A DNA stretch of 39,661 nucleotides from a virus. The first letter of the stretch is position 1. Each line of letters opens with the position of its first letter. The notes under the pieces are model-generated. The model saw nothing but the letters and a program-made list of their open reading frames with translations. It was not told the DNA's origin and ran no database searches. Location of the stretch: positions 1 to 39,661 of IMG/VR virus record IMGVR_UViG_3300018875_000038; one strand, written 5' to 3'. Shown piece after piece: positions 13,404 to 15,410 of this stretch. The translations under genes were made by a program, and so were the position numbers.

Positions 13404-13624
13404 CCCTCCGCTTCCCAAGCCGCGTCACCTATTTCGAGAACGTGAAGGAGCGAGGCCCTGAGCCTGCACAGGTGCTTGCTCATGCGATCCCGCTATGGCG
13501 AGCCGGTCTCGACACCGACGCCATCACCCGTCGTCTCAACGACGAGTACGGCTGGCTGCTGCATCCGGCCCTGGTTGCAAATGAGATCGCGCGTTGGCGT
13601 GATGGTCGAGCGAGGGCCGCATGA
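13400..13624 (+). CDS. Hypothetical protein, possible HTH
   Basis: 74 residues. AQVLAHAIPLWRAGLDTDAI followed by TRRLNDEYGWLLHPALVANEI has the look of a helix-turn-helix of the type 'W-x-GLs-x-x-IA-x-LN'. It is coupled by ATGA to the gene before and by the same overlap to the methyltransferase gene after it. Small regulator or accessory factor; not proven. Confidence 0.6.
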   Translation: MTLRFPSRVTYFENVKERGPEPAQVLAHAIPLWRAGLDTDAITRRLNDEYGWLLHPALVANEIARWRDGRARAA

Positions 13625-14760
13625 ATGGCGCCCGCGCTTACTATAACGAAATCGACCCGTTCGCCGCGGCGTGGCTTCGCAGCCTCGCTGCAACTGGACT
13701 TATTCTCCCTGGAGACGTGGACGAGCGCGACATCCGAGACGTCCATCCCGACGATCTCCGCGGCTACACCCAGTGTCATTTCTTTGCCGGTATCGGCGTC
13801 TGGAGCTACGCGCTCCGTCTCGCCGGATGGCCTGACGACCGTCCCGTCTGGACGGGATCATGCCCCTGCCAACCTTTCAGCGCGGCAGGCCGAGGCGGCG
13901 GGTTTGCTGACGAGCGGCACCTATGGCCGCACTGGCACCATCTCATCCGCGAGTGCCGCCCTCCAACAATCTTTGGCGAGCAGGTTGCAAGCAAGGACGG
14001 CCTCGCTTGGCTCGACCTTGTTCAAGCTGACCTGGAAGGAGAGGACTACGCCTGCGGGGCGGTCGATCTCTGCGCTGCGGGCGTCGGCGCGCCGCATATC
14101 AGACAGCGACTGTGGTTCGTGGCCAACGCCAACGAAGTCGAACGGGGACGGGGGACAGATCGCCAAGGATTGCTCGCCAACGGGCAAACGATCGGACGGC
14201 AGCAAGGCCACGGTGAGTCTGAACCAGATCGCTCAGCTTTCCTCTTGGGCAACGCCGAACACGGTAGACGCGAAAGGCGGCACGCGGAACGGCCCTGGCC
14301 AAGTGCAACTTTGTCATCAGGCGAAGCTAGCAGGTTGGGGCACGCCGAACGCTTCAGCCCCCGGCGGAACGCCGGAGCAGGCGCTAGCGCGCAAGGCGGG
14401 CCTGTCGTGCGGCCAGAGTGTGACGACGCTGGACCATCAGGTGCAGTTGGCGGGTTGGCCTACGCCGATGGCTGGGACGCCAGCGCAGAAGGGCTACAAC
14501 GCGGCGGGCAACACGGACAGTTCGCGCACGACGCAGGCGCTTGTGACGGCGCTGGAAGGCCCGGCCCGACTAACGGCTTCTGGCGAGATGCTGACTGGCT
14601 CTTCTGCCGGGACGGAAAGTGGCGGCCAGTTGAGCCCGGCACATTCCCGTTGGCTCATGGGGCTCCCGCCCGCGTGGGACGCCTGCGCGGTTACGGCAAT
14701 GCAATCAATGCCGAAGCGGCGGCGCAGATGATCGCGGCGGCTATGGAGTGTCTGACGTGA
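13621..14760 (+). CDS. DNA cytosine-5 methyltransferase (Dcm-like)
   Basis: 379 residues. C5-MTase motifs in order: I, FFAGIGVWSYAL near 53-64; IV, GSCPCQPFSAAGRGGGF near 78-95 with the catalytic Cys in PCQ; VI-like FGEQVAS near 118-124; VIII, QRLWFVA near 161-167; and X, GYGNAINAEAAAQMI near the C-terminus. The part between VIII and X is the target-recognition region and holds spaced 'L-[AG]-[NHY]-A' segments. It probably modifies phage DNA against host restriction. Uniquely, a second long frame (+1) is open through almost the whole gene and itself looks conserved. ATGA overlap with the preceding gene; stop overlaps the next GTG start. Confidence 0.9.
   Translation: MNGARAYYNEIDPFAAAWLRSLAATGLILPGDVDERDIRDVHPDDLRGYTQCHFFAGIGVWSYALRLAGWPDDRPVWTGSCPCQPFSAAGRGGGFADERHLWPHWHHLIRECRPPTIFGEQVASKDGLAWLDLVQADLEGEDYACGAVDLCAAGVGAPHIRQRLWFVANANEVERGRGTDRQGLLANGQTIGRQQGHGESEPDRSAFLLGNAEHGRRERRHAERPWPSATLSSGEASRLGHAERFSPRRNAGAGASAQGGPVVRPECDDAGPSGAVGGLAYADGWDASAEGLQRGGQHGQFAHDAGACDGAGRPGPTNGFWRDADWLFCRDGKWRPVEPGTFPLAHGAPARVGRLRGYGNAINAEAAAQMIAAAMECLT
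13625..14731 (+). CDS. Overlapping +1-frame ORF inside the methyltransferase gene
   Basis: This frame is open for 368 codons within the methyltransferase gene. From about 13850 onward it reads like a real protein: GLLTSGTYGRTGTISSASAA, STLFKLTWKERTTPAGR, and a C-terminus ending SPAHSRWLMGLPPAWDAC. Four W[PAG]TP motifs (about 14120, 14246, 14336, 14456) recur with an 'H-Q-x-x-LAGW' lead-in. I recognise such sequences from stand-alone phage hypotheticals. The first 75 codons look like shadow, and there is no obvious ATG near 13850, so how it is translated is unclear (internal start or frameshift). Confidence 0.5.
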   Translation: MAPALTITKSTRSPRRGFAASLQLDLFSLETWTSATSETSIPTISAATPSVISLPVSASGATRSVSPDGLTTVPSGRDHAPANLSARQAEAAGLLTSGTYGRTGTISSASAALQQSLASRLQARTASLGSTLFKLTWKERTTPAGRSISALRASARRISDSDCGSWPTPTKSNGDGGQIAKDCSPTGKRSDGSKATVSLNQIAQLSSWATPNTVDAKGGTRNGPGQVQLCHQAKLAGWGTPNASAPGGTPEQALARKAGLSCGQSVTTLDHQVQLAGWPTPMAGTPAQKGYNAAGNTDSSRTTQALVTALEGPARLTASGEMLTGSSAGTESGGQLSPAHSRWLMGLPPAWDACAVTAMQSMPKRRRR

Positions 14761-15410
14761 GTTCGCCGGGCGAAGCCATCAAACGCATGATCGAACTCGG
14801 CGCCACGCCTGAGATGGTCGCGGCTGCGGTCGATGCTATCGTTTCCGCAACAGCCAACGCAGGGCCTTCCGGTTCTGCCCGCACCGCCCGTCAGGAGCGG
14901 AACGCTCGTTATTACCAGCACCGCAAAGAGCGTCTCAAAGCGTCTGAAACGTCTGAATTAAGACGGTTTCAGACGGTTTCAGACGGTGTGTCGGTCCCTC
15001 CTCCCGAGGAAATGTCCCCCACACCCCCTAAAACTCAACCCTCTACCCAAGACTCCTCTTCGCCTCCTCCGGAGGCTCAGGCCCCCTCATCGGCGAGAAC
15101 CTCTCGGGGCCATCGCTTGCCTCAGGACTGGCAGGCCAGCGAAGCCGATCGAGACTTCGCCCGTCAGCAGGGCTGGACCGATACTGAGATTGACCAAGCC
15201 GAGGCGGAATTCCGGGACTACTGGCATTCCGTGCCCGGCAAGCAGGGGACCAAGCTCGACTGGTCCGCGACGTGGCGCAACCGGATCCGCCAGATGGGGC
15301 CCCGCCGGACGCGAACGAATGGCCGCGATCCGCCGCGCAATCCCTGGATTGCCGAAGCCGAGAAGCATCACCGCAACCTGGAGGCCAAGCGCCATGAACG
15401 CCCTCACTAA
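14757..15410 (+). CDS. Phage replication initiation protein (O/DnaT-like)
   Basis: 217 residues from the GTG at 14757, which overlaps the methyltransferase stop (GTGA) and has GGAG 8-9 bases upstream. Three parts: a helical N-terminus to about residue 60 (EMVAAAVDAIVSATANAG, RNARYYQHRKERL), a Pro/Ser/Thr-rich linker (about 75-115), and a C-terminal domain with LPQDWQASEADRDFARQQGW, then FRDYWHSVPGKQGTKLDWSA and TWRNRIRQM. The last block is the signature end of DnaT-like and phage replication proteins that recruit helicase. An iteron-like DNA array lies in its linker-proximal part, as in lambda O. Confidence 0.72.
   Translation: MSSPGEAIKRMIELGATPEMVAAAVDAIVSATANAGPSGSARTARQERNARYYQHRKERLKASETSELRRFQTVSDGVSVPPPEEMSPTPPKTQPSTQDSSSPPPEAQAPSSARTSRGHRLPQDWQASEADRDFARQQGWTDTEIDQAEAEFRDYWHSVPGKQGTKLDWSATWRNRIRQMGPRRTRTNGRDPPRNPWIAEAEKHHRNLEAKRHERPH
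14931..14990. repeat. Iteron-like array, candidate phage replication origin
   Basis: Copies of GTCTGAA or its near-match occur at 14932 (GTCTCAA), 14942 and 14951 in one orientation. The reverse form TTTCAGAC occurs at 14967 and 14977, and AGACGGTTTC is repeated exactly at 14961 and 14971, with AGACGGTGTG at 14981. The units are phased at about 10 bp, one DNA turn. The array lies inside a replication-protein gene and is followed by a pyrimidine-rich stretch, the layout of lambdoid origins. Confidence 0.6.

Follow-up and report, generated by a model that had tools for sequence, protein, structure and literature searches.

A phage C5-cytosine methyltransferase gene (alpha) contains, nested in its +1 frame, a second gene (beta), and both frames have stayed intact in hundreds of phages that are only distantly related. 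The existence of the second frame and its overlap with the methyltransferase are confirmed, and there is strong support for long dual coding in which both proteins are constrained. We propose, with a probability of roughly 0.83, that the two products are subunits of one C5-methyltransferase, in which a catalytic alpha chain (motifs I-VIII and X) would be complemented by a nested beta chain with a helix-hairpin, WxTP modules and motif IX. The window, by which we mean the whole stretch of 39,661 nucleotides analysed, is an IMG/VR virus record (IMGVR_UViG_3300018875_000038) with repressor, exonuclease, terminase, portal, head and tail genes. The original prediction of a +1 frame open for 368 codons inside the methyltransferase gene was borne out by the coordinates of the two reading frames (Table 1).

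Table 1. Position of the two overlapping reading frames and of their motifs in the window.
Feature	Positions	Strand	Evidence
Alpha ORF, C5-cytosine methyltransferase, 379 aa, motifs I-VIII and X	13621-14760	+	PF00145, phrog_363 and M.HhaI matches
Beta ORF, nested, +1 frame, 368 aa	13625-14731	+	phrog matches, stop avoidance, synonymous constraint
Alpha motif I, FFAGIGVWS	13780-13806	+	kept in alignment A2
Alpha motif IV, PCQPFS; onset of +1 amino-acid constraint	13864-13881	+	
Beta conserved core, helix and beta-hairpin (ALQQSLASRLQARTASLGSTLFKLTWKERTTPAGRSISALRASARR)	13949-14095	+	AlphaFold2 pLDDT ~84-93, remainder low
Alpha motif VI, FGEQV (counterpart of ENV)	13972-13986	+	aligned to ENV motif
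Alpha motif VIII, GAPHIRQRLWFVA	14086-14124	+	M.HhaI and A5 alignments
Beta WxTP modules, W at 14120, 14246, 14336 and 14456; proposed target-recognition region	14120-14470	+	mismatch pattern, +1 identity
Beta motif IX, GGQLSPAHSRWLMGLPPAWDA	14621-14683	+	hhalign, 21 columns, E 4.5e-5
Alpha motif X, GNAIN	14695-14709	+	kept in alignment A2

Family assignment of the two proteins

Alpha has the features by which a C5-methyltransferase is recognised, namely motif IV with PCQ, motif VI, motif VIII with QRxR and a match to PF00145 (3.2e-10, above the cut-off, residues 78-173 only). It matched phrog_363 over its length (9e-84) and M.HhaI across residues 73-173. Beta matched phrog_31772 (1.2e-40) and phrog_1008 (2e-33), and these families were also matched by all 26 of the 26 beta members tested; it had no relative in Pfam, and a sequence search of the PDB with the beta profile gave no match. 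The strong PHROGs matches of the two proteins are to three families that are all described, as shown, as 'DNA methyltransferase', and the layout as two frames of one gene is unmentioned in these descriptions. The main frame had been credited with all C5-methyltransferase motifs; it has I, IV, VI, VIII and X, and is without IX.

Stop codons are avoided in the +1 frame

Relatives fetched with the +1 protein showed the overlap in an identical relative phase in every case. Because such a sample is biased to the +1 frame, the relatives were refetched by the methyltransferase alone, and 76 distinct loci selected in this way were scored between roughly codon 50 and a point close to the end of the gene. 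The survey of homologous loci for frequent +1 stops, suggested with the original prediction, found none: 0 stops were seen, as against 198 expected from synonymous-codon shuffles within each gene. No avoidance was observed in the +2 frame of the same 76 loci (950 stops seen, 841 expected) or in an in-gene control upstream of the +1 gene, alpha residues 6-39, where 238 +1 stops were seen and 179 expected. Synonymous shuffles of individual parts of the overlap predicted 223 +1 stops over alpha residues 82-175 and 149 in the variable region, and none was present in either. Alpha residues 46-81 had 5 +1 stops compared to 72 expected, yet were without amino-acid constraint; this part of the overlap looks translated in the +1 frame but free in sequence. 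Together with the constraint on fourfold sites described below, the absence of stops strongly supports the earlier suggestion of an overprinted (overlapping) gene.

Each frame is constrained in its own parts of the gene

Third-base entropy at fourfold sites was followed along alpha in about 156 genes. It amounted to 1.75 bits over residues 1-30 and 1.72 bits over 46-80, decreased to 1.15 over 81-130, 0.80 over 131-175 and 0.52 over 311-362, and was 1.57 beyond residue 362. Some fourfold sites were invariant where the main frame allows any base, for example V337 (GTT in 146/146) and P339 (CCC in 140/140). This profile indicates that the +1 amino-acid constraint runs from the PCQ motif to near the +1 stop. 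A constraint of the +1 frame across the entire methyltransferase gene was rejected, as the fourfold sites revealed none before PCQ.

In the variable region, pairwise identities taken from frame-0 alignments are inherently biased towards frame 0, and they were replaced by frame-neutral DNA matches. Ungapped matches were in phase in 46,457 of 46,457 cases, and disjoint pairs were used so that each gene counts once. Before PCQ, mismatches of the disjoint pairs fell mostly on frame-0 third positions (0.21/0.18/0.60 for frame-0 positions 1/2/3), while in the variable region (~96 disjoint pairs) the distribution was 0.53/0.27/0.20, corresponding to +1 third positions. Identity of the disjoint pairs in this region reached 0.72 in +1, compared with 0.44 in frame 0 and 0.47 in +2, which is non-coding; the corresponding values for the window's own matches were 0.74, 0.46 and 0.47. 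Constraint in the variable region hence acts on the +1 frame; the main frame is kept open and is otherwise as free as the non-coding frame.

Purifying selection, for which a test of both frames had been advised, was found in both, each in its own parts, by fourfold sites as well as by mismatch positions. The view that dual coding constrains both proteins holds in that both are selected, and has to be amended in that the constraint is unequal along the gene: it bears on alpha only before PCQ, on both proteins over PCQ-VIII and over IX/X, mainly on beta in the variable region, and on alpha after motif X.

Start of the beta gene

Asp40 of alpha is encoded by GAT, which creates a +1 ATG, in 74% of the sequences, compared to 22-55% at other Asp positions, and an ATG was present within the suitable +1 range in 197/207 genes. 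These figures fit a putative beta start near alpha codon 40 in most relatives. The window is an exception: it has GAC, not GAT, at alpha codon 40 and so is without the relatives' commonest start. Its +1 frame stays open back to the ATG at 13625, which lies 4 bases past the alpha ATG (ATGAATGG). In phage N15 (gp58, L170), no more than about 14 codons ahead of PCQ are open in +1, and they offer no start codon; beta would therefore begin later there than in other phages.

Beta carries motif IX and a modular region

The C-terminus of beta (QLSPAHSRWLMGLPPAWD) aligns, via in-frame relatives, to motif IX of M.HhaI (LHPRECARVMGYPDSY). Comparison by hhalign of single-frame methyltransferases (alignment A5) with beta gave one matching place, 21 columns around LxPxFVEWMMGLPxGW. 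In the A5 alignment the same place of M.HhaI is motif IX, followed by motif X; the link between beta and M.HhaI is thus one of 21 columns made through a bridging alignment. Against alpha, A5 gave matches to motif VIII only. The +1 frame therefore carries motif IX, and the main frame motif X; at this locus the two motifs do not stand together in one chain after the recognition region, as frame 0 has X only. The +1 protein had been read as a phage hypothetical; it carries instead the missing motif IX and the modular region between VIII and IX. Its most likely identity is therefore that of the enzyme's own beta subunit.

Each W[PAG]TP of the modular region had also been described as lying over an L-[AG]-[NHY]-A segment of the main frame. 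This is correct for LGNA, LGHA and LAYA, and not for the first segment, VANA, which has V instead of L. Two AlphaFold2 models, for which rows from the phage collection were left out of the alignment, were confident for the helix-hairpin only; the first, of beta alone, had a mean pLDDT of 60, and the second was weaker. A Foldseek search of the PDB with the first model returned no structural relative. The poor predicted folding of beta on its own would fit a chain that requires a partner.

Motif IX is found in different frames in related loci

A DNA pattern of motif IX, chosen regardless of frame, gave 97 evaluable loci. The motif was nested in +1 in 33 of them, in the main frame in 30, in a split +1 arrangement in 29 and elsewhere in 5. 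In the split class the +1 ORF overlaps the end of a methyltransferase that is without C-terminal motifs. WxTP-like modules were present in the +1 frame of 30/32 nested, 29/29 split and 30/30 in-frame loci (89/91 altogether) and in the main frame of 4/32, 13/29 and 12/30, respectively. Across phages, motifs IX and X thus shift between frames, and the WxTP modules remain in +1. No free-standing beta without a methyltransferase was encountered among the loci studied.

We think it rather probable that, among small phage C5-methyltransferases, dual-frame coding is the general rule for a very large group, with recognition modules in +1 relative to the catalytic domain and with IX/X switching frames by lineage (nested, split or frame 0). 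If this is true, evolution could alter specificity by swapping modules in phase, the modules having to remain open in the catalytic frame without having to carry meaning there. The layout is present in N15 gp58, epsilon15, Vequintavirinae and Krischvirus, and also on plasmids and in bacterial genomes, mostly of Proteobacteria and of other phyla too. In the split relatives L261:2694-4371, L267:200-1247 and L279:12737-13925, the methyltransferase ends after VIII and the +1 ORF consists of WxTP modules, IX and X. A single-frame relative (L262:7545-8518) has IX and X in frame 0; it still has an ORF in +1, which comprises the helix-hairpin and PTP modules and ends before IX.

Proposed enzyme and alternative explanations

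We propose that frame 0 is translated into alpha, which would supply the SAM-binding and catalytic motifs I-VIII as well as motif X, and that the +1 frame is translated from its own ATG into beta, which would supply the helix-hairpin, the modular WxTP region and motif IX. Target recognition most likely falls to beta, whose WxTP region would read the target sequence. The two polypeptides would associate into the active enzyme, both chains presumably being required for activity, and the assembled enzyme would methylate phage DNA. Its likely use would be to shield this DNA from host restriction.

Beta could alternatively be a separate phage protein of other function, e.g. anti-restriction or regulatory, that overlaps the methyltransferase gene by chance. 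A helix-hairpin core without likeness in Pfam or the PDB would agree with such a protein, but it is precisely motif IX, missing from alpha, that the beta C-terminus matches. Moreover, the +1 ORF of the split relatives also has motif X, alpha ending there after VIII, and a methyltransferase domain lies upstream in 97/97 evaluable motif-IX loci; we regard a separate function as unlikely. A programmed ribosomal frameshift, originally considered as a source of the +1 product, would join the N-terminal part of alpha and the C-terminal part of the +1 product in one enzyme. The constrained beta core, however, lies over alpha motifs VI-VIII, so that a fusion loses one or the other and no shift geometry retains all conserved parts. 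In addition, the avoidance of +1 stops sets in at about alpha codon 46, ahead of the onset of constraint and of any useful shift site, and the GAT bias at Asp40 provides a +1 ATG. The +1 frame directly follows alpha and, in split relatives, carries the missing C-terminal motifs, which would agree with a frameshift; we consider one quite improbable.

Finally, the open second frame might be a by-product of high GC content, codon usage and repeated DNA modules. Long open off-frames do occur in high-GC genomes and the window contains many chance ORFs, but the synonymous shuffles, the control upstream in the same genes, the abrupt limits of fourfold constraint and the mismatches at +1 third positions all speak against composition, and the +1 frame is open and conserved in AT-richer phages too. 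Within the sample used, the shuffle and in-gene controls ruled out an artefact of composition, an explanation that we find hardly credible. The two-subunit methyltransferase is the reading that we retain.

Comparison with known two-chain methyltransferases

Lee, Kam and Shaw reportedly described in 1995 that the small chain of M.EcoHK31I is coded in another frame inside the large-chain gene; that gene is said to be nested in +1, as beta is here. By motif layout, alpha and beta resemble the two-polypeptide C5-methyltransferases M.EcoHK31I (YGGCCR) and M.EaeI, which have the same division of motifs. In M.EcoHK31I, motif IX alone is on the small chain; the large chain holds motifs I-VIII and X and is also predicted to hold the target-recognition domain (PMC3404938). 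In contrast, the variable region of our locus is constrained in the small-chain frame (identity of 0.72 vs 0.44). Since the recognition region would thus lie in the small chain, unlike in the published M.EcoHK31I, the locus represents a variant of the known arrangement. It also differs from M.EcoHK31I and M.EaeI in that it belongs to a phage, and the neighbouring genes of the window that were tested included no recognisable restriction enzyme. In M.AquI (CYCGRG) the motifs are likewise split over two chains, with a break before IX-X (PMC3404938). The catalytic motifs I-VIII and the C-terminal motifs are separated in the same way, with the second ORF in +1, in L261, L267 and L279, whereas alpha of the window retains motif X and the overlap takes up almost the full length of both ORFs. 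Among the papers searched, there was no account of dual coding in phage C5-methyltransferases.

DNA genomes rarely contain long same-strand overlaps in which both frames are selected. The present one, with about 280 codons under +1 constraint, occurs in unrelated phages, plasmids and prophages, and is a clean natural test case of two proteins sharing one DNA sequence. Among the phage cytosine methyltransferases annotated so far, many probably represent only one half of an enzyme, whose other chain, the likely determinant of the target, is unannotated or mislabelled. Methylation assays of alpha on its own, whether recoded or cloned, could be unsuccessful or misleading, as beta would be destroyed by codon optimisation.

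Neighbouring gene and annotation of the locus

The gene that follows the methyltransferase in the window (14748-15410) matches primosomal/replication-initiation families. In epsilon15 a gene for a DnaT-like replication protein follows the methylase likewise, which suggests that the order from methyltransferase to replication gene is conserved between the window and epsilon15.

Existing annotations cover the two frames to different extents. In Klebsiella phage VLCpiM12a (L172:2213-3088) beta alone is annotated, as 'DNA methyltransferase', and the overlying alpha frame is unannotated. The annotation covers only a C-terminal piece of beta in Erythrobacter phage R6L, Komagataeibacter phage phiKX1 and cyanophage Cy-LDV1. 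Both frames are annotated in a few phage records, L084 (2476-3468 and 2558-3463), L166 (1868-2662 and 1956-2618) and L167 (1910-2734 and 1998-2690), where they are labelled as two methyltransferases or as a methylase and an 'Mte8-like protein', the overlap being unremarked in the fields shown.
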